Of a DNA stretch of 33,214 nucleotides, positions 8,085 through 33,214 are shown one piece after another. The stretch comes from an uncultured Saprospiraceae bacterium. GTDB taxonomy: Bacteria > Bacteroidota > Bacteroidia > Chitinophagales > Saprospiraceae. The notes beneath the pieces were generated by a model, which saw nothing but the letters and a program-made list of their open reading frames with translations, was not told where the DNA came from and searched no databases. A program made the position numbers and the translations under genes. The stretch spans positions 1 to 33,214 of the forward strand of contig CAKZSH010000278.1 in the NCBI GenBank assembly GCA_937918905.1. The letters are read 5' to 3'. How positions within the stretch are numbered: the stretch's first letter is position 1; each line of letters begins with the position of its first letter.

Positions 8085-8142
8085 AACGAAAAAATTATTT
8101 TGATTTTATTGATTCGATCAATGGCTAGATTTTCATAAAAGT

Positions 8143-8313
8143 ACTTAGAAACTGTTTAAACTTTTTTAATCGGACTGCAAAAGCTGTATTTTTTCATCAC
8201 TCTGCGACTTTTTATCGAGCAATAGTTTAGGCTATTCTTCTCCAAAAACCCTTCGATTGATAAAAAAACTAGCTTTTTCGCCTCGAAGAAAAAAATCTAA
8301 ACAGGTTCTAAGT
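8143..8313. mobile_element. MITE-like full-length palindrome abutting the LRR gene
   Basis: Termini ACTTAGAAACTGTTTA (from 8143) and, on the other strand, ACTTAGAACCTGTTTA (from 8313) are inverted repeats. Pairing continues imperfectly to the centre, AATAG...CTATT at 8221-8236, so the whole 171 bp can fold as one hairpin. No coding capacity. It ends 5 bp before the LRR stop codon. I could not define a target-site duplication. It may be a non-autonomous mobile element or a large 3'-end hairpin. Confidence 0.6.
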
Positions 8314-8318
8314 AACGG

Positions 8319-11014: not shown

Positions 11015-11069
11015 GAGACCGCTTCGCTGTCAGAGGCAAAGATTTAACCTCTGACAGCAAAGCGGTCTC
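11015..11069. repeat. 22-bp-stem hairpin in the leader of the LuxR-type gene
   Basis: GAGACCGCTTCGCTGTCAGA (from 11015) pairs with the arm ending GCGGTCTC at 11069: 22 bp with one mismatch and an 11-nt loop. A-tracts lie on both sides on the plus strand, so on the minus strand the hairpin is followed by T6 like a terminator. It ends 14 bp before the ATG at 11084, so it could also limit ribosome access to that start. Confidence 0.7.
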
Positions 11070-12169: not shown

Positions 12170-12312
12170 TCCCGGTGGGAATATCGAATACTGAACAAGG
12201 AATTTCGAAGTCTTTCGAATACTTGTGATAAGTAAAATCAATGTTATTCGACAAACTTCAACATTCCTTGTTCGGTATTCGATATTCGATATTCCCTTCC
12301 GGGCCTAGTCCC
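12162..12312. repeat. Long palindrome E1 beginning in the LuxR gene's last codons
   Basis: The left arm reads GGGAATATCGAA then TACTGAACAAGGAAT from 12178. The right arm, read on the other strand, gives the same words with one 7-bp insertion (TATCGAA duplicated). Outer segments around CTAGTCCCGG and CCGGGCCTAG also pair roughly. The core holds GAAGTCTTTCGAATA and TTCGACAAACTTC, which again are mutually complementary. The structure starts within the last codons of the regulator gene and probably ends its transcript. Confidence 0.8.
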
Positions 12313-15632: not shown

Positions 15633-15710
15633 TGATTCAAGACTATGGATTAAGGATTATGGATGTGGACGAAAAATCCTGAATCCTTAATCCATAATCT
15701 TGAATCTTAA
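15633..15710. repeat. Palindrome directly after the PASTA gene
   Basis: The left arm (15633-15665; GATTCAAGACTATGGATTAA) pairs with the right arm (15676-15710; TTAATCCATAATCTTGAATC) with very few mismatches. The loop contains GTGGACGAAAAATCC. It starts at the first base after the stop codon and has no long T-run after it. It probably acts as a transcript end. Confidence 0.8.
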
Positions 15711-19653: not shown

Positions 19654-19811
19654 ATACCGAATTTAATAAGAGGTGTCGTGTATATTGAATTAGATTTTGT
19701 CGATAATCGAGGCAAAAAACGCAGGGATAGCCTAGCTATCACGAGGCTTTTTCGAAGAGTATCGGCGAAAGATAATTCAATATACACGACATATTTTATT
19801 AAATTCGGTAT
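19654..19811. mobile_element. MITE-like 158-bp palindromic element with ATACCG ends
   Basis: The ends ATACCGAATTTAATAA are perfect 16-bp inverted repeats. After a few mismatches, TGTCGTGTATATTGAATTA is repeated inverted as well (arms about 19654-19692 and 19773-19811). Pairing continues weakly to the centre GATAGC/GCTATC near 19733. It carries no gene and is inserted inside the larger palindrome at 19520-19852. A 21-bp copy of one end occurs at 26046. Confidence 0.7.
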
Positions 19812-21048: not shown

Positions 21049-21133
21049 AATAATTTTGAATTTTGAATGTGCCAAAAAAATGGTGATTCAAAATTTTTCA
21101 TTCATTCAAAATTCACCATTCAAAATTCAAAAT
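21049..21133. repeat. Palindrome between rimK and the deacylase-family gene
   Basis: Outer arms ATTTTGAATTTTGAATG (21052-21068) and CATTCAAAATTCAAAAT (21116-21132) are complementary. Inside, ATGGTGATTCAAAATTTTTC can pair with the following TTCAAAATTCACCAT. It begins 4 bp downstream of the rimK stop and forms the leader of the next gene. It could reduce expression of that gene relative to rimK. Confidence 0.75.
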
Positions 21134-21136
21134 TTA

Positions 21137-23587: not shown

Positions 23588-23908
23588 TTAACTGATGTTA
23601 CGCAAAAAATATAATAATCTAGTTTCGAAAATATATTGAGTATTGAACGCTGAGTCGCTGAGACACAGAGTTGGTCGAATAACTTATTGAGGTCGCAGAG
23701 GATTTTTATTAAAATAAAAATGAGCTGAGATGCAGAGATTCAAAGTGTTCTTGATAAAAAGGCTTTGCGAACTCTGCTTCTATTTTTCAAACCTGCCTGC
23801 CGCAGCGGGGAAAAATACTCTGCGGCTCCTATTTATTATTCAACCAACTCTGTGTCTCAGCCACTCAGCGTTCAATACTCAATATATTTTGTGCGTAACT
23901 TCAGTTAA
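23588..23908. repeat. 321-bp two-tier palindrome after the UMF1-like gene
   Basis: Outer ends TTAACTGATGTTACGCA (23588) and, inverted, TTAACTGAAGTTACGCA (ending 23908) differ at one base. The second tier, about 55 bp (23628-23684 with 23833-23889; AATATATTGAGTATTGAACG, CGCTGAGTCGCTGAGACACA), is nearly perfect. The centre is looser and contains CGCAGAG words like those at 28013 and 28594. No protein-coding potential is apparent; short frames inside are repeat readings. Possibly a MITE. Confidence 0.8.
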
Positions 23909-26380: not shown

Positions 26381-27994
26381 TTAAACGAGTATTCCTTTTC
26401 CTTTTAACGCAAAGTTCTCCACCTCAATCGGAAACTCCACTCCTTGCATTTTCAATGCCTGCACCCGATACAAATAAGCCGCACCCTGCATAATCTGCTC
26501 CGCCACATCCGCCGCATGTCTATTGTTATAATCTTCGAGGTAACTACCTTTCACCCAATCATTAAATGCACCCATCGAAGGGCCACACCAAATTTGATAA
26601 TCTTGAGCACGACCTTCCGTACCTGCATTTGCCCAGTTAGAAGACAATCCTAAGTACCATCGGAAAATCAAAGCCATCTTACGTTTTGGATTTCCTTGCG
26701 CACGTTCAATTTGTTCAGGATCTCTTTTTTCGAAAAACTCAATACAACCTTGCCAGATTTCTTCTAATGGTTTTTTGAAAATTTGCTTTTCTAATTTTGC
26801 CCGTTCGTCTGCAGGGATTTCGTCAATGGAATTATAATGTTTATAATATTCGTATAATTTTTTGGCACGAGGAGCAAAGAGAGTCCCTCTTTTTAGTACT
26901 TGTAATTCTACGCCCATTTCAAACATATCGGAAGCTGGAGCCATCATCACATCGGTAGAGGCAACAGTTTGTAACAATTTACGCACGTGTTCCGAGGTTC
27001 CTGCTTCTGTACAAGCCTGATTCACAGAACCAGTCACTACAAATGCTGCACCCATCATAAATGCACCCAACGCAGAGGCAGGTGTTGAAATTCCTCCTGC
27101 TGCACCAACTCTGATTTTTTTCTCAAAATTATACTTCGCTTGATATTCATCTCGCAACTGAATAATGGTAGATAATAATGCGACCAATGGTCGATTATCC
27201 GTATGCCCTCCTGAATCAGCTTCTACCGTAATATCATCTGCCATCGAAACTCGGGATGCTAATTGCGCTTGCGCTGCTGTAATTTTTCCTTTTTCTAAAA
27301 GTGCATTTAAAAATCGCTCAGGTGCTGGTTGCATAAAATGTGCAGCAACTTCCTTTCGAGATATTTTTGCAATAACTTTGTTTTTAGTAATGACATTTCC
27401 TTCTGCATCTTGACTTAATCCTGCGACTCTATAATGAACGATATTTTCTGTCAATGCTAAAAATGCAGATGCTTCCACGACATGAACTCCTTTTTCCAAA
27501 AATAATTTTACTGCTCCTTCTTCAAGCGCAGGTTCGTTTGGACTATGGATTAAATTGAATGCATACGACTGTGTTGGTAATGCTCCTTGTATTTTTTCTA
27601 TGGCTTGTAAAACTCTTGTTGGAACTAAACCTGCTGCTCCGAACGAACCTAAGAATCCTGCTTTTCCAATTGCGATGACCAATTCTTCGGATGCGATTCC
27701 GTTGGCCATTGCTCCTGTTTTGTAGGAGTATTTGAGGTTGTAGTCTTCTTGGAAGGTTGGGTCGCCGAGTTGGGAAGCGGTCATGGGATTCGCCATGGCT
27801 AAGACTTGGAGTCCTCTTCCTTGTGAGACTAATTCGCCGTCGTTACTTGCGCCGATTCTTCCTCGGAAGTCTTGCATGATGTAACAAGGCTTTTCCGTAT
27901 TGGAAAGTTTTTCTTGAATTTCTTCTGGGGTGAAGACGATGTCTCTTGGGGAACCTTTCCAGAAAAGTTGTTGTGGTGTACCGTTGTATTTCAT
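26381..27994 (-). CDS. pfaD: PfaD, enoyl reductase component of PUFA synthase
   Basis: A 537-residue FMN-dependent enzyme of the nitronate monooxygenase-like TIM-barrel family. In the PfaABCDE polyunsaturated fatty acid synthases this protein acts as the trans-enoyl reductase. Supporting features are the N-terminal PCYIMQDFRGRIG region specific to PfaD, FLGSFGAAGLVPTRV (114-128), the FMN-site motif EADSGGHTDNRPLV (259-271), VGAAGGISTP (296-305), GAAFVVTGSVNQ (315-326) and the long PfaD-specific C-terminal region (about 380-537) absent from simple nitronate monooxygenases. It lies downstream of pfaC on the same strand but three genes away. A 137-bp palindrome starts 18 bp before its ATG, so it needs its own promoter or readthrough. 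Confidence 0.93.
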   Translation of the reverse strand: MKYNGTPQQLFWKGSPRDIVFTPEEIQEKLSNTEKPCYIMQDFRGRIGASNDGELVSQGRGLQVLAMANPMTASQLGDPTFQEDYNLKYSYKTGAMANGIASEELVIAIGKAGFLGSFGAAGLVPTRVLQAIEKIQGALPTQSYAFNLIHSPNEPALEEGAVKLFLEKGVHVVEASAFLALTENIVHYRVAGLSQDAEGNVITKNKVIAKISRKEVAAHFMQPAPERFLNALLEKGKITAAQAQLASRVSMADDITVEADSGGHTDNRPLVALLSTIIQLRDEYQAKYNFEKKIRVGAAGGISTPASALGAFMMGAAFVVTGSVNQACTEAGTSEHVRKLLQTVASTDVMMAPASDMFEMGVELQVLKRGTLFAPRAKKLYEYYKHYNSIDEIPADERAKLEKQIFKKPLEEIWQGCIEFFEKRDPEQIERAQGNPKRKMALIFRWYLGLSSNWANAGTEGRAQDYQIWCGPSMGAFNDWVKGSYLEDYNNRHAADVAEQIMQGAAYLYRVQALKMQGVEFPIEVENFALKGKGILV

Positions 27995-28012: not shown

Positions 28013-28149
28013 CGTGAATATTTTTAAACGCAGAGGCGCGGAGGCGCAGAGTTTTTTACATTAATGTGTATGTTTTTTTATAAAAAACAAAATACGTATG
28101 CAAAAAAAAACTCAGCGTCTCCCCGCCTCTGCGTTGAAAAATATTCACG
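28013..28149. repeat. 137-bp palindrome, copy A, between GxxExxY and pfaD
   Basis: CGTGAATATTTTT...AACGCAGAGGCG at the left pairs with the mirror arm ending AAAAATATTCACG over about 45 bp, and the centre is TTTTTTTATAAAAAA. It lies 11 bp after the GxxExxY stop and 18 bp before the pfaD start. It is the same length and orientation as the copy at 28594. Differences between left and right arms within the copy lie mainly in the GCGCGGAGGCGCAGAG segment. Confidence 0.9.
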
Positions 28150-28160
28150 CCAAAAGATTT

Positions 28161-28553
28161 TCAAAAGTTATTGACTTTTCGTTTGACACCCCGAAGCATT
28201 TGAGTGACATTAAAATTCATTAAGTAACCGAGTCGCTTATTTCCTAATTTTAAATAAGTAACAACTTGTGCTTCATGAATAGGAAATATTTCTTGTATAC
28301 ATTTTAATTCAAGAATTATTTCATCTTCTACAAGTATATCGACTATGTAATATTTTTCTAATTTCTTTCCTTTATAAAAAATTGGTAGTTTCACTTGTTG
28401 CTCCGCTTTTAATCCTCTCATCCTTAATTCTTCCATCAAGCAAGCTTCATAAACGGATTCTAATAATCCTGGTCCCGTTAGTTTATGAACTTCGATTGCT
28501 GCACCTATAATTATAGATGCAAGGTCGTTTAATTCGTCTTGTGTAGGTTTCAT
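28161..28553 (-). CDS. GxxExxY protein (PD-(D/E)XK nuclease-like fold)
   Basis: A 130-residue protein of the GxxExxY family. The name motif is present as G29-L-L-E32-S-V-Y35 in TGPGLLESVYEACLMEEL. It is followed by a nuclease-like arrangement: D72 in YYIVDILVED, E82-L-K84 in ILELKC, and Q96-V-V-T-Y100, the QxxxY element. These suggest an intact PD-(D/E)XK core, but the family's function is not established. The gene is bracketed by two 137-bp palindromes in direct orientation (28013-28149 and 28594-28730), which suggests the gene and palindromes form one unit. It lies between two PUFA synthase genes with no metabolic link to them. Confidence 0.88.
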   Translation of the reverse strand: MKPTQDELNDLASIIIGAAIEVHKLTGPGLLESVYEACLMEELRMRGLKAEQQVKLPIFYKGKKLEKYYIVDILVEDEIILELKCIQEIFPIHEAQVVTYLKLGNKRLGYLMNFNVTQMLRGVKRKVNNF

Positions 28554-28593
28554 TTTATAGTATGTTTAATTATTGAGAAATCGTTTTTTGTTG

Positions 28594-28730
28594 CGTGTTT
28601 ATTTTTCAACGCAGAGGCGGGGAGACGCTGAGTTTTTTACACTAACGTGTATGTTTTTTTTATAAAAAAACAAAACACGGATACGAAAAAACTCTGCGCT
28701 TCCCCGTCTCTACGTTGAAAAATAAACACG
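28594..28730. repeat. 137-bp palindrome, copy B, upstream of GxxExxY
   Basis: CGTGTTTATTTTTCAACGCA begins the left arm and TGAAAAATAAACACG ends the right. The centre is T8 ATA A7. It is the same size as copy A and in the same orientation, with a 31-bp stretch (AACGCAGAGGCGGGGAGACG onwards) identical to the inverted right arm of copy A. It starts 40 bp upstream of the GxxExxY ATG and ends 15 bp after the lipoprotein stop, so it may serve as that gene's transcript end. Confidence 0.9.
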
Positions 28731-28745
28731 TCAAATCGTAGAAAC

Positions 28746-29591
28746 TTACTCAATCACCCCCTTCAAAAAACCAATCTTCCCCCTCATATTACTCTCCTCC
28801 GTATCCTCATAATCATCTTCCATATTAAAATTTCTACCATTATAAATAATCTTCAAAACAAACGATTCATCATCCACCCAAGCCATTTTCTGAATCATCC
28901 AATCCTCTTGCGCACTATAATCAGTATAATCTTTTAAAGTATAGATTCCATCTTGCTGTTCAACTTTTTTAATTAAAATATAACTATCATCAGCAAATAA
29001 ATTATCTAAGCTTAGAAAAATATATTTCTGATTAGGAGATACTTCAAAACGATTAAACCCAAAATCAGAATTAGCGTTAAGTGGATATTTATCTCCATTG
29101 ATACCATTCATTAAAATAGTTTCGGAATAGTGAGCACCACCATAATAATTGGTATTAATAATGTGGTAATCAATCGCTCTAAGCCATCCTAAGTAAGATG
29201 AAACTTCACTTTCATCTTTTGGATTTGTTTTAAAAGCAATATGCTCTTCTTCAATTCTAATTAAGAAAGAAGTATCCGTTCGGGAAACCATTGTTTTAAC
29301 TGTATCAACACTTTCTGTTTTTTGAGAAAAATATTTTAGAAACTCTTCCTTTTTAATTTCTTCAAAAGAAATTTTTGTATGTACATCTTCAATTAAGCCG
29401 ATTGAAGATTCTTCGTGTACAGTATCTATATTGATTACGGTAACTGAAATATGTTCATTTGCTACAACATCTAAATTTTTTTCAATGGCTTTCGTATTAT
29501 AAGAATCGCTCTTTTGCGTAACTCCTTGACAAGATTGAAAAAGTAGAGATATGAAAAAAAATATATTAAAAATGAGTTTGATTTTTTTCAT
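28746..29591 (-). CDS. Lipoprotein of unknown function
   Basis: A 281-residue protein with a lipoprotein signal: MKKIKLIFNIFFFISLLFQS followed by Cys21. The rest is charged and mostly beta-like, with GINGDKYPLNANSDFGFNRFEVSPNQ and YIFLSLDNLFADDSYILIKK suggesting a beta-propeller or lipocalin-like repeat, but I recognise no family. The C-terminal part is acidic (DDYEDTEESN). It lies 20 bp downstream of the Fic gene on the same strand and is probably co-transcribed with it. That arrangement hints at one insertion unit rather than a shared function. Confidence 0.75.
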   Translation of the reverse strand: MKKIKLIFNIFFFISLLFQSCQGVTQKSDSYNTKAIEKNLDVVANEHISVTVINIDTVHEESSIGLIEDVHTKISFEEIKKEEFLKYFSQKTESVDTVKTMVSRTDTSFLIRIEEEHIAFKTNPKDESEVSSYLGWLRAIDYHIINTNYYGGAHYSETILMNGINGDKYPLNANSDFGFNRFEVSPNQKYIFLSLDNLFADDSYILIKKVEQQDGIYTLKDYTDYSAQEDWMIQKMAWVDDESFVLKIIYNGRNFNMEDDYEDTEESNMRGKIGFLKGVIE

Positions 29592-29611: not shown

Positions 29612-30691
29612 TTACCGCCTGCTCAATAAATCAAATAAAGGACGATTGATGTAATAATTTGTTTTATGAATCCTTTCTTTTTCCAATAAACCATCTTCCG
29701 CAAGTTGATTTAAATAACCTGAAGCAGTTGGTCTAGAAACACCTAAATCATCTATTACAAAATCAATTTTTGTATAAGGATGTTTAAATAAATTATTCAG
29801 TAAATCCTGACTATAAAATTTATAATTACTACGTAAATTATTTTTGGTTTCTAACATCAATACTTTTATAGAGGTGATAAGTTGGATGGTTTCTTTCGAT
29901 GTTTCTTCCACCCCTTTTATCATATATAAAATCCAATCCTCGTATTCATTCGTATCTCTTACCTTTTGCAAAAGTTGATAATAATCAGATTTGTGTCGGA
30001 TGATATAACTACTCAAATATAAAATTGGTAAATCCAACAAACCATTTACAATCAAATAAAGAATATTTATAATTCTTCCAGTTCTTCCATTTCCATCATA
30101 GAAAGGATGGATACTTTCAAACTGAAAATGGATGATTGCCATTTTTACCAAAGGGTCAAAATCACTCAATTCAGGATTGTTGATGTACTGTTCCAAGTTT
30201 GACATCAAAGCAACAATCTCATCATTATGCTGAGGTGGAGTGTAAATGACTTCTCCTGTACTTGAATTTTTCAAAGCAGTACCAGCTACTTTTCTAAATC
30301 CTGCTTTGTTCTTTTCCAATTGTTCCTGAATTTCCAATATCATATTATTGGTCAAAATTTCTCTTTCAGAAATCAATGCGAAACCTCTTTTAAGCGCAGT
30401 AATATAATTTTGAACTTCTTTGGTTTCCAGCGATTTTATCGTAGAAAAATCAATCTCTGATTTGTATAACTCATCGTGCGTAGTGACAATATTTTCAATA
30501 GCAGAACTATCTTTTGCCTCTTGCAAACCAAGGGTATTGATTAAAATATTTTGATTTGGAATAGTTGAAGCCACTCCTTTTAATTCAGCCAAAGCTTTGT
30601 GGGCTTTGAGCAAACTTCTAAGAATTACTTTATTTTCCACATCAAACTTGATAGGTAAATTTTCTAACCTCCATTTTGTATTTTGATTCAT
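29612..30691 (-). CDS. Fic-domain AMP-transferase-type protein with intramolecular inhibitory helix and C-terminal HTH
   Basis: A 359-residue Fic protein of the large class that carries its own inhibitor. The N-terminal region has the inhibitory motif S62-S-A-I-E66-N67, matching (S/T)xxxE(G/N). The Fic core has the complete active-site motif H195-PFYDGNGRTGR206. The C-terminal 70 residues are a winged-helix/HTH (DFVIDDLGVSRPTASGYLNQ by pattern), common in this type. Known relatives transfer AMP from ATP to a hydroxyl side chain of a target protein; the target here is unknown. The HTH suggests autoregulation, and repeated boxes lie 41-118 bp upstream. It shares a transcript with the lipoprotein gene downstream. 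Confidence 0.92.
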   Translation of the reverse strand: MNQNTKWRLENLPIKFDVENKVILRSLLKAHKALAELKGVASTIPNQNILINTLGLQEAKDSSAIENIVTTHDELYKSEIDFSTIKSLETKEVQNYITALKRGFALISEREILTNNMILEIQEQLEKNKAGFRKVAGTALKNSSTGEVIYTPPQHNDEIVALMSNLEQYINNPELSDFDPLVKMAIIHFQFESIHPFYDGNGRTGRIINILYLIVNGLLDLPILYLSSYIIRHKSDYYQLLQKVRDTNEYEDWILYMIKGVEETSKETIQLITSIKVLMLETKNNLRSNYKFYSQDLLNNLFKHPYTKIDFVIDDLGVSRPTASGYLNQLAEDGLLEKERIHKTNYYINRPLFDLLSRR

Positions 30692-30925: not shown

Positions 30926-33214
30926 TTACGCCTCCTCAATCCCCAATGCCAAATCCGTCAACTGATAAATCCTCACCTCATCATTCCACAAACTCGCATC
31001 CCCAATCACCTGTAACTGCCCACCATGCATCTCAACCGATTTAATATGAATCTCCAATTGCATCTCTCGAACATGCGTCAAAATCTGTCCACGATATTTC
31101 CATACCGTCTCATGATTCGCCAACTGAACAAATTTTGGATTAGAAAAATCTTTACCCAAATCTTGCTGCAAAGCAAAAACTTGCATCGCTTGCAAAATCG
31201 CTTCTACACCTAACGAACCAGGCATCACAGGGTCTTGATAAAAATGACAAGTATAAAACCACTCATAAGGCATCACAAATTTTGTAGCATGCACATAGCC
31301 TTTGCCATGCTCACCCGCATCTTTTGCAATAATCAAATTGTCAATTAAATTCAACTGATTCTCAGCCAAACGATAATGTGGTTTGTTAGCAGGAGCTTTG
31401 TAAAGTTTCATTTTTCCATACAAAGAATCCAATTTGATTTGCATGTATTGTTGCGGTTGTAATTGTTTTGTTAGGTACCATGGTTGAACCATTTTGCCAC
31501 CATCCAATCCAACTTGAGTTGCCAAGGCTTCCGCAGGGAAAAATCCAAATGAAGATTTTCCTTTATAAAAAACATGTCCGTCAATCGAACATTCAAAAGT
31601 GTAGTTTTGTAAAATCGTACCACCTAATGCAACGGATGAAGTCAACACCGCATGATTTGTAATTGTCTTACCTCTAAAATCTGTTCCATTCGGTAAGTCA
31701 AACATTTCACCATTTCCATCCAGGTTTCGGAAGTATAAATTCTTATCTGCAAATTGCAATGTACTTCCCAAATACGCACCCAACAATCCACAAGGCTGCA
31801 ATGCAATTTCCATCAAAATAGAGTAGGGCATCGTCGTCGCAGAATTTTGTTCGTAGTACCAAGCGTTTACAGGTACATCATATTCTGCATGGATTTTTGA
31901 AGACTTGGAAAAATCTCCACGCGTACCATCCACACTTATAATTCTTGAAATAACTTGTAAATCTGTATTTGGCTGACGTGAAACTTTACGACCATCATAT
32001 ACCGCAAAATCATCCCCAAAACATTTTGACAAATCATCCAATGCAAAAGTCGTAATATCCAACTCATTTAACAATGCTCCTTCAGAACGAGGAGAAATCT
32101 CAACGCCAGACGTTGTCTCTAAATATTTAGGATTTGTTTTTTCTCTTAATTGTAAACCTAAGTTTTCAAAATGAACGGTCACCACATCATTTGAAATAAT
32201 TTCCAAATCACCAATCACATATGGATTAGGAATCAAACCAATTTCTTTGATTTCTAATTTGTAAATCAACTTTGTATCCTTTGAAGGAGTAACTTGTTTT
32301 CGGCAACGTACTTTTTGTGGTAAATCAAAAATCGGTTGGTAACGAGCATCTTTTGTCAACCGTTGAAGTCCCAACATCAACATAAAGAATCGTAATAAAT
32401 TTCCACCACCTTCTGCTTGAAGTGAACCTGCCAAAACTTCATCATCTCGGAAGTGACAAGGGAAATACCAATCGTCAGGATGCAAATCTTTTTCTGCAAC
32501 AATGTACCCCAAGCCATATGCACCACCTGTCAAATCAACAGATGTAATTCTGTCAATCATCAATATTTTTTCAGGAGGCAAACATAAAGAAGGATTGCGA
32601 CCATTGGCATAATAGGAAATGTCGTCGAAACATTTTTCCATATCGCCATTTATCAAATGTTGTAAATCTTCTTTGGTGAAAGTCGTTTTAGTGGTATTTA
32701 ATAAAGGAGTGAAATATCGTTTTTTCGCATTTCGTTTGACTTCTAATTCCTTATCGGTATAAACAACTCCTGCACCATTTTCCAATTCTTCATCTCTAAA
32801 ATATCCAGCACAACCGCCATCCATTTTTAAAACCAATCTATCCTCTACATAACATCGGTAGCTAAAAAAGAATAATAAGTTATCGCCATTTTTCACAAAA
32901 GAATTAATGGAAATATCATATCGTAAAGTTTGTCCTTCGAAAGGTAAGTCATCCACAAATGTCAATGTGCAATCCAATAAACGATAAACTAAATTTCCTT
33001 TATTGGTAAAATCAATTCCTAAATATGAAATCAACAATAAATCACATTGACCTGATTCTACCGATACCGCCCAAGGAATTTGTCGGTCAGTTGTAAACCA
33101 TGCACCGTAGGGAATATCATATTCCGTTTGCATTGTAGAAGGTCTGAAATTACCTCGTTCCGCATTTAACCCAGTAACTCGACTTACCAATAAATAGGGA
33201 TACATCGGTAACAT
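30926..33214 (-). CDS. pfaC: PfaC C-terminal part: tandem FabA-like dehydratase units of PUFA synthase (partial)
   Basis: The 762 residues visible are the C-terminal end of a larger protein cut by the window edge; the Met at 33214 is not its start. The fragment holds two double-hotdog dehydratase units. Unit 1 has a degenerate hotdog at about 5-150 and a FabA-like hotdog at about 210-355, with CHFRDDEVLAGSLQAEG giving His254 and Glu268. Unit 2 has a degenerate hotdog at about 418-560 and a FabA-like hotdog at about 618-760, with CHFYQDPVMPGSLGVEA giving His657 and Glu671. In Pfa synthases these domains remove water and set double bonds. The ketosynthase and chain-length-factor domains of PfaC should lie beyond 33214. 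The stop is followed by the Fic gene rather than by pfaD. Confidence 0.9.
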   Translation of the reverse strand: MLPMYPYLLVSRVTGLNAERGNFRPSTMQTEYDIPYGAWFTTDRQIPWAVSVESGQCDLLLISYLGIDFTNKGNLVYRLLDCTLTFVDDLPFEGQTLRYDISINSFVKNGDNLLFFFSYRCYVEDRLVLKMDGGCAGYFRDEELENGAGVVYTDKELEVKRNAKKRYFTPLLNTTKTTFTKEDLQHLINGDMEKCFDDISYYANGRNPSLCLPPEKILMIDRITSVDLTGGAYGLGYIVAEKDLHPDDWYFPCHFRDDEVLAGSLQAEGGGNLLRFFMLMLGLQRLTKDARYQPIFDLPQKVRCRKQVTPSKDTKLIYKLEIKEIGLIPNPYVIGDLEIISNDVVTVHFENLGLQLREKTNPKYLETTSGVEISPRSEGALLNELDITTFALDDLSKCFGDDFAVYDGRKVSRQPNTDLQVISRIISVDGTRGDFSKSSKIHAEYDVPVNAWYYEQNSATTMPYSILMEIALQPCGLLGAYLGSTLQFADKNLYFRNLDGNGEMFDLPNGTDFRGKTITNHAVLTSSVALGGTILQNYTFECSIDGHVFYKGKSSFGFFPAEALATQVGLDGGKMVQPWYLTKQLQPQQYMQIKLDSLYGKMKLYKAPANKPHYRLAENQLNLIDNLIIAKDAGEHGKGYVHATKFVMPYEWFYTCHFYQDPVMPGSLGVEAILQAMQVFALQQDLGKDFSNPKFVQLANHETVWKYRGQILTHVREMQLEIHIKSVEMHGGQLQVIGDASLWNDEVRIYQLTDLALGIEEA

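Follow-up and report, generated by a model that had tools for sequence, protein, structure and literature searches.

GxxExxY genes and their flanking repeats as a candidate minimal mobile element of bacteria and archaea

We found that genes of the GxxExxY family, which encode a small protein with a PD-(D/E)XK nuclease fold, usually lie in a palindrome that is split around the gene, so that its two halves form terminal inverted repeats. The arms consist of short tandem units whose type follows the protein tree, and copies of gene and arms occur at several places with unrelated flanks. These features suggest a tiny mobile element made up of the gene and its repeats. With a probability of roughly 0.64, we regard it as a RAYT-like, self-mobilising element with the PD-(D/E)XK enzyme as its sole protein.

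The window locus and its protein

The window (a stretch of 33,214 nucleotides from an uncultured Saprospiraceae bacterium) contains a GxxExxY gene (28161..28553, minus strand, 130 aa), which is the sole ORF of at least 80 aa located wholly between two palindromes. These have no assigned strand: palindrome A (28013-28149; arms 28013-28057 and 28105-28149) lies on the downstream side of the gene, and palindrome B (28594-28730; arms 28594-28638 and 28686-28730) on its upstream side. The 45-nt arms of A are 91% complementary and those of B 89%, with 47 nt between the arms in either case; each palindrome is 137 bp long, and the two lie in one orientation, 581 bp apart from start to start. The initial annotation had described two such same-orientation palindromes enclosing only the GxxExxY gene, as well as a paired change near their outer ends. 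Both statements were confirmed: the palindromes could be read directly and were also found as repeats, and the outer ends (CGTGAATATTTTT...AAAAATATTCACG in copy A, CGTGTTTATTTTT...AAAAATAAACACG in copy B) bear out the paired change in each of the two arms.

The arm units of palindrome B read CGCAGAGG/CGGGGAGA/CGCTGAG. Folding of the DNA strand gave -47.1 kcal/mol for A and -51.2 for B (shuffle means -13.8 and -14.4; z -12.90 and -14.65), and for each palindrome none of 200 shuffles was as good. Palindromes as such are common in the window genome, and with our ORF caller the window shows seven other intergenic stems with scores of 36-70, compared with 70 and 71 for A and B. A gene-less inverted repeat at 23660..23858 (no strand assigned; CACAGAG/CGCAGAG/CTCTGCG units; stem score 51) probably belongs, in diverged form, to the class of A and B. 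Another gene-less palindrome (15634-15706), with units like ATTAAGGATTATGGAT, resembles the arms of IVP type described below, and further long palindromes that differ in sequence, with stem scores of 36-70, lie between genes at 19654-19811, 12179-12287, 11015-11069, 8142-8314 and 21052-21134. Rfam yielded no matches in the window at the gathering threshold.

The neighbouring genes provide context and lie outside the element. Downstream and co-directional is a pfaD-like gene (26381..27994, minus strand; TIGR02814, 663 bits), and upstream, also co-directional, is a 281-aa ORF (28746..29591, minus strand) that matched no family in NCBIfam, Pfam or PADLOC. A gene for a Fic/SoFic-like protein adenylyltransferase (29612-30691) belongs to the same accessory stretch upstream of pfaD. 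By reading, the large gene at 30926-33214 of the window is situated about 0.3-0.8 kb upstream of pfaD in G001, G002, G007 and G013, and in the window the Fic, 281-aa and GxxExxY genes lie between the two. Inspection of about 1.25 kb upstream of the pfaD homologue in five relatives revealed no GxxExxY gene, and in G004 other repeats were read upstream of pfaD. The insertions at this place can therefore not be told apart, and these relatives yielded no clean empty site for the window element.

The assignment of the encoded protein to the PD-(D/E)XK GxxExxY family, made in the initial annotation, was upheld by matches to TIGR04256 (144.2 bits, cut-off 35) and PF13366 PDDEXK_3 (144.1 bits, cut-off 22; the single Pfam match), and the fold resembles that of Cas4 and lambda exonuclease. 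Residues G27, G29, E32, Y35, D72, E82, K84 and Y100 are invariant among 65 aligned sequences (the window protein being row 1), and Q96 is present in at least 90% of them. The resulting order E-D-ExK-QxxxY is that of the Cas4/RecB-type motifs. With the AF2 model of the window protein (pLDDT 96.6, pTM 0.89), Foldseek returned nothing at E <=0.001, its top matches being SSO0001 (0.0029) and lambda exonuclease. In a second structural comparison, SSO0001 (which we take to be a Cas4) was the best solved-structure match (Z 9.6, rmsd 3.1, 99 aligned), and Hjc reached Z 7.0, in the range below about 8 that may reflect a common arrangement only. The structural similarities are thus modest; searched by sequence, the PDB gave no match to the window protein below E 1, and PHROGs gave none. 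As E, D, ExK and Y are invariant and Q nearly so, the protein is most likely an active Cas4/RecB-like nuclease. Moreover, dN/dS is about 0.03-0.11 in four GxxExxY gene pairs, which indicates strong purifying selection on the protein; a fifth pair has almost no changes, and L331/L343 was left out of this set.

A nuclease of this fold might also be taken for a defence or toxin-antitoxin protein with repeats beside its gene by chance, and in two loci, L041 and L058 (other-branch GxxExxY with TTGTCTGAAT/AGGAT arms), the gene indeed has a type I specificity-subunit gene on one side and an HsdR_N-containing gene on the other. PADLOC had no match for the window protein, and no constant partner gene was noticed in the flanks that were read, the GxxExxY gene being placed between ordinary co-directional genes. 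These observations make a defence role extremely unlikely.

Split arms around GxxExxY genes

The layout was examined more broadly in the best 80 of 586 confirmed GxxExxY loci in genome contigs, which provided 74 ORF rows (ORFs were taken from a greedy caller, and one row that was left in, L133, had been wrongly assigned to a 602-aa ORF of the opposite strand). The check proposed in the initial annotation, for palindromes beside GxxExxY genes elsewhere, failed, and complete palindromes are not a general feature of GxxExxY flanks: stems scoring at least 30 were present beside 8 of the 74 ORFs versus 116 of 844 control ORFs in these best 80 of 586 loci. This test, which showed no enrichment, was replaced by one for split arms. 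Reading of the flanks had disclosed such arms among the loci listed, e.g. TTAACCGCAAAGNNCGCAAAG upstream and CTTTGCGNNCTTTGCGGTTAA downstream.

In the motif-free split-arm test, the 200 nt upstream of an ORF were compared with the reverse-complemented 200 nt downstream (TIR score, threshold 14), for 70 testable GxxExxY rows and, as controls, 775 testable ORFs that lie in these loci more than 1 kb from the gene. Among these best 80 of 586 loci, the threshold was reached by 44 of the 70 GxxExxY ORFs (26 were below it) and by 19 of the 775 controls (Fisher p 5e-40), and this difference rules out chance or the genome-wide background of palindromes as the whole explanation of the split arms. Inward CRCRRAG arrays on both sides accompanied 25/70 GxxExxY ORFs vs 3/775 controls in the same sample, and outward arrays were found upstream in 10/70 and downstream in 5/70 (controls 25/775 and 26/775). 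Direct repeats across the gene (17/70 vs 16/775, again for the best 80 of 586) were enriched, although less than inverted arms. The usual layout is therefore one palindrome split around the gene, and the palindrome-gene-palindrome form of the window is a minority form.

The arms are widespread. At least three CRCRRAG units within 220+220 nt were present at 59 of 79 named GxxExxY ORFs: 29/40 in Bacteroidota, 5/6 in Chloroflexota, 4/6 each in Cyanobacteriota and Planctomycetota, 4/4 in Ignavibacteriota, 3/3 each in Acidobacteriota and the archaeal Methanobacteriota, 2/2 in Pseudomonadota, 1/2 in Chlorobiota, 0/2 in Verrucomicrobiota, 0/1 in Elusimicrobiota and 4/4 in four single rows. GxxExxY loci originated from 14 named phyla, and some small MAG contigs among them may be mis-binned. 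The one archaeal contig that was checked (L120) is archaeal by its genes, which include those for an archaeal pilin and formylmethanofuran formyltransferase. One of the two Pseudomonadota rows, L088 (named Rhizobium), has flanks like those of the Flavobacterium hemW site and is probably mis-binned. Extra hairpins (e.g. GACCGATCGG...CGATCGGTC) were observed just inside the GxxExxY arms of L130 and L139.

Another feature of the arms concerns their relation to the protein. Simple motif rules assigned unit labels to 106 of 139 ORFs (CRCRRAG 86, CRCNRAT 13, small classes 4 and 3) and none to 33. The two small classes add little, as they were defined after the flanks concerned had been read. On the protein tree, 6 label changes sufficed for the 106 labelled rows; with "none" as a state there were 26 vs 48.5 after shuffling (0/200), and the CRCNRAT class alone required 4 vs 12.5 (0/500). 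When the labelled rows are sorted by nearest query, group A comprises 84 CRCRRAG rows alongside 5 CRCNRAT, and group F 5 CRCNRAT alongside 1 CRCRRAG. In group E, 4 rows carry the class particular to that group and 1 is CRCRRAG; all labelled rows are CRCNRAT in groups B and D, and in group C all are of that group's own class. Unit type thus follows the protein tree. Host phylum, mapped for 78 named rows, required 28 changes (minimum 14, shuffled 37.3, 0/200 as low); phyla cluster in part and are otherwise much mixed, a pattern in keeping with transfer, as far as few alignment columns can tell.

The two arms of an element also co-evolve. For 56 named CRCRRAG elements, an element's own left and right arms scored 16.0 vs 9.8 in cross-pairings, and for the 13 CRCNRAT elements 22.0 vs 9.8 (0/5000 permutations in each case); the own partner was best or tied among right arms in 13/56 and 8/13, respectively. 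Co-variation in the arms, which the initial annotation had proposed to check, was seen in 17 orthologous Flavobacterium elements (four others with both arms were left out for length shifts), in which 92.4% of arm positions were complementary vs 87.4% after shuffling (0/500) and 7 positions co-varied vs 4.0.

Both neighbours were co-directional with the gene in 46 of 51 GxxExxY cases vs 348 of 592 controls (p 3.5e-6), a contrast to which spurious control ORFs of the greedy caller may contribute by lowering the control value. Since the element usually lies between co-directional genes, its gene may be read by host-operon transcription. Such a position would also suit an RNA or host device whose arms fold in mRNA and are trimmed by RNase III, the role of the nuclease being unrelated, and a similar layout is reported for the Coxiella 23S intervening sequence (IVS) (PMC4990558). 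This explanation leaves unaccounted for the correspondence between unit type and protein tree, and equally the arm-only copies at many other sites, and we judge it improbable.

Two other kinds of small ORF presented a comparable layout. Seven controls of the split-arm test reached a TIR score of at least 20; six of them encode four-helix IVP proteins (three were checked as PF05635) and the seventh adjoins such an ORF. As the four-helix seeds were chosen for their arms, the 9 of 11 that reached 14 are a biased figure; in an independent set (L381-L410), 19 of 29 IVP ORFs (PF05635) outside rRNA did so, relative to the split-arm controls, which come from other loci. Small GIY-YIG ORFs (L411-L440) attained 14 in 16/29 cases, and stems of at least 30 in their own flanks were present for 10/29 GIY-YIG and 2/29 IVP ORFs. 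The arms of the IVP ORFs (L381-L410, L062-L141) are inverted, with short tandem units unlike those of GxxExxY (e.g. AGTATTGAGTATTTAG). GIY-YIG ORFs of about 94 aa (L411-L440, L150, L177, L198, L203, L204) are often accompanied by GTCAT... and TTCAGCAT hairpin repeats, often direct copies, and G129:C9:906043-910392 contains ten tandem matches to the GIY-YIG query with a regular 457-bp step. We treat both layouts as leads outside the main claim. It is possible, if rather doubtful, that GxxExxY, IVP and GIY-YIG represent one broad class of minimal, single-ORF mobile elements, each bound to its own kind of palindromic or tandem-unit repeat. Such elements would have given rise to many short repeats between the genes of bacteria and archaea and would move without known transposase chemistry.

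Copies, gene-less relatives and a route of movement

The window genome (G000) has seven TIGR04256 matches, of which the one in the window is L002. By reading, inverted or palindromic sequence is present near each of the six others, with mostly different units: CACAGAG at L001, weak CGCAGATT/ACGCTGATT halves at L003, split arms at L004, CACGAATT at L005, ACGGAGG at L006 and a downstream palindrome at L007 (a partial TIGR04256 match). Arm scores were 27.5-83.5 for L001, L002, L004, L005 and L006, and just 9.0 for L003. Two unit types thus coexist in this genome, with CRCRRAG arms at L001, L002 and L006 and CRCNRAT arms at L004 and L005.

Arms of the window's own family were also found on at least 16 further G000 contigs (a lower bound, 40 of 170 first-look candidates having been scored), none of which is among the six other GxxExxY contigs. 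The initial annotation had named palindromes of this family beside other genes as evidence against a link with GxxExxY; such palindromes do exist, but we read them as gene-less derivatives of the element. Several solo relatives of the window palindromes (L012-L031) have a small hairpin at their borders, either ATTCAGC...GCTGAAT or ATTGGC...GCCAAT.

Gene-less relatives are also abundant in the class to which the window belongs, 246 of whose 396 sampled genomes contain GxxExxY. The arm pattern ACCRCRRAGRNCRCRRAG, which also matches gene-bearing elements, had 948 matches in 143 of the 396 genomes, compared with 11 when it was reversed. Among genomes with GxxExxY, 122 of 250 contained the pattern, and among those without the gene 21 of 146 (odds ratio 5.7, p 1.6e-12, uncorrected for phylogeny). 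Arm motifs without a GxxExxY gene reached up to 36 copies in G233, and the window genome has 0 matches because its units differ from the pattern.

Copies within genomes were compared for 70 loci of 8 multi-copy genomes. Three same-genome pairs with unrelated flanks were identified: L331/L343 (89.6% over 483 bp), L324/L338 (84.8%, 513 bp) and L379/L380 (98.3%, 349 bp). In L331/L343 the edges of the shared block coincide with the arm ends or lie no more than about 12 bp from them; in L324/L338 the block runs from inside the left arm to some 45 bp beyond the right one, where it enters a further repeat; and in L379/L380 it ends at a contig end. The remaining pairs were near 70-79% or short, and L315/L328 (100%) is one overlapping region that was not counted. 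At identities of 84.8-98.3%, the copies of one genome may have been acquired separately. L324, L338 and L344, all from G036, have an additional repeat just outside their arms, CCTGAACAGTAACAA along with its complement. Moreover, the closest of 64 other aligned homologues of the window protein (L045, 63% identity), from the same-genus genome G003, lies between other genes in the same palindrome-gene-palindrome form (stems 36 and 47, different loops), and the arm core of palindrome A is identical to the corresponding arm of L045 at 31 of 33 bases. The initial idea of a self-contained unit is hence supported by terminal inverted repeats, unit type on the tree, arm co-evolution, same-genome copies and L045.

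The states of a single site could be followed in the hemW-cyclase spacer of Flavobacterium, in 105 rows (97 plus 8 loci taken because they bear the gene, two of the latter being duplicated among the 97). According to simple motif rules, 25 rows were full (17 of them in the 97-row set), 24 had a gene-less CRCRRAG palindrome (including L155, in which by reading the left arm only is present), 13 had a palindrome of other units, 12 were empty (<=30 bp), 21 were classed as other and 10 could not be scored. One site is thus full, gene-less or empty in different species, and its empty forms are too diverged for boundaries to be placed at the base level. L111 (full) and L220 (gene-less, with other arms), whose hemW genes are 95.2% identical, differ in arm sequence as well as gene, and the gene-less copies are therefore not simply products of deletion.

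The coexistence of full, gene-less and empty states at one site is compatible with a homing endonuclease, and homing into existing palindromes is the main rival of our reading. Palindromes would then spread by other means, the nuclease would cut the cruciform tip of a gene-less copy, and repair from a gene-bearing copy through the shared arms would insert the gene in the middle, so that it colonises palindromes already present. This would agree with the placement of the gene between two arms (44/70 among the best 80 of 586 loci), with gene-less and gene-bearing forms at the same Flavobacterium spot, and with the lack of a target-site duplication in those 44 of 139 ORFs whose elements could be delimited at either end (the insertions are old). 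Nevertheless, close species at one site differ in their arms as well as in the gene, and same-genome copies share the arm sequence too; homing thus appears unlikely. Palindromes of other types were also seen at the hemW site, and five of its rows have a GIY-YIG ORF. Unrelated repeats and non-essential genes might therefore simply share tolerant intergenic sites, a view that the arm motifs without a gene would fit. We disfavour this artefact as very improbable, given the inward orientation on both sides (25/70 vs 3/775, best 80 of 586), the match of unit type with protein branch and the co-evolution of an element's own arms.

Self-mobilisation by the GxxExxY element, the reading that we prefer, could proceed as follows. 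The element is a palindrome with the gene in or beside its middle and a few units per arm pointing towards the gene, CRCRRAG in the largest protein group and CRCNRAT or others elsewhere. The protein may bind its own units and cut the arm hairpin or cruciform, most likely in single-stranded form at replication, and host repair would then place a copy in intergenic DNA, leaving no target duplication that could be recognised. Palindromes that have these units but no gene would be non-autonomous derivatives. Action of the nuclease on the hairpins, as the initial annotation suggested, is plausible. The weakest steps are the cutting of the arms by the protein and the insertion; a PD-(D/E)XK nuclease on its own is not known to carry out strand transfer. 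Movement is inferred, transposition not having been seen in the genome comparisons. One consensus-like query found GxxExxY in 8 of 72,556 plasmid records and in 0 of 50,697 phage records, which indicates that neither phages nor plasmids are its usual carriers.

On this account, GxxExxY proteins gain a concrete and testable role, and the common intergenic palindromes of tandem units gain an origin. If a lone PD-(D/E)XK nuclease moves DNA, it would constitute a new enzyme class among DNA mobilisers. The code linking protein branch and unit (CRCRRAG, CRCNRAT and others) supplies cognate and non-cognate pairs for an assay.

Comparison with known systems

Searches of the open-licence PMC library found no description of such an element, and the two papers there that name GxxExxY deal with neither its function nor its flanks. 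The protein shares its fold with Cas4, lambda exonuclease and RecB-type nucleases (SSO0001, Z 9.6) and with the Hjc resolvase (Z 7.0, a value that may reflect arrangement only), but it differs from them in being a stand-alone protein of 130 aa that is tied to palindromes and has no detectable sequence relation in the PDB. Like MITEs and insertion sequences, GxxExxY elements have terminal inverted repeats and gene-less derivatives, and copies were found at several places with unrelated flanks (three same-genome pairs and the same-genus pair). Unlike these, they have no DDE, HUH, serine or tyrosine enzyme. No target-site duplication was found in 44 elements, but these are old insertions.

The element also recalls the 23S rRNA IVS with S23p/IVP (PF05635), which likewise encloses one small ORF between inverted terminal repeats and bears short tandem units. 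The Coxiella 23S IVS is reported to have a small ORF, a terminal stem and tandem heptamers and to be excised by RNase III (PMC4990558). The GxxExxY protein is unrelated and its unit sequences differ; moreover, the published case lies inside rRNA, whereas the window element is intergenic and encodes a PDDEXK_3 protein.

The closest parallel is offered by the RAYT/REP system. It is reported to consist of one small ORF flanked by inverted palindromic repeats; protein and repeats co-evolve, gene-less repeats are abundant and the presence of the gene correlates with repeat abundance. RAYTs are related to the IS200/IS605 (HUH/Y1) transposases, whose members generate no larger target-site duplications, and their genes are reported to evolve rapidly (PMC2817692). 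The window protein belongs to PDDEXK_3 and not to the HUH/Y1 transposases, and the arms of its relatives are arrays of units of the 7-nt class split around the gene. Four GxxExxY pairs are under strong purifying selection, unlike the RAYT genes as reported. By analogy rather than by membership, GxxExxY can nevertheless be considered a small ORF between co-evolving inverted repeats, which has many gene-less copies and whose repeats are commoner where the gene is present (122/250 vs 21/146 genomes, uncorrected for phylogeny).
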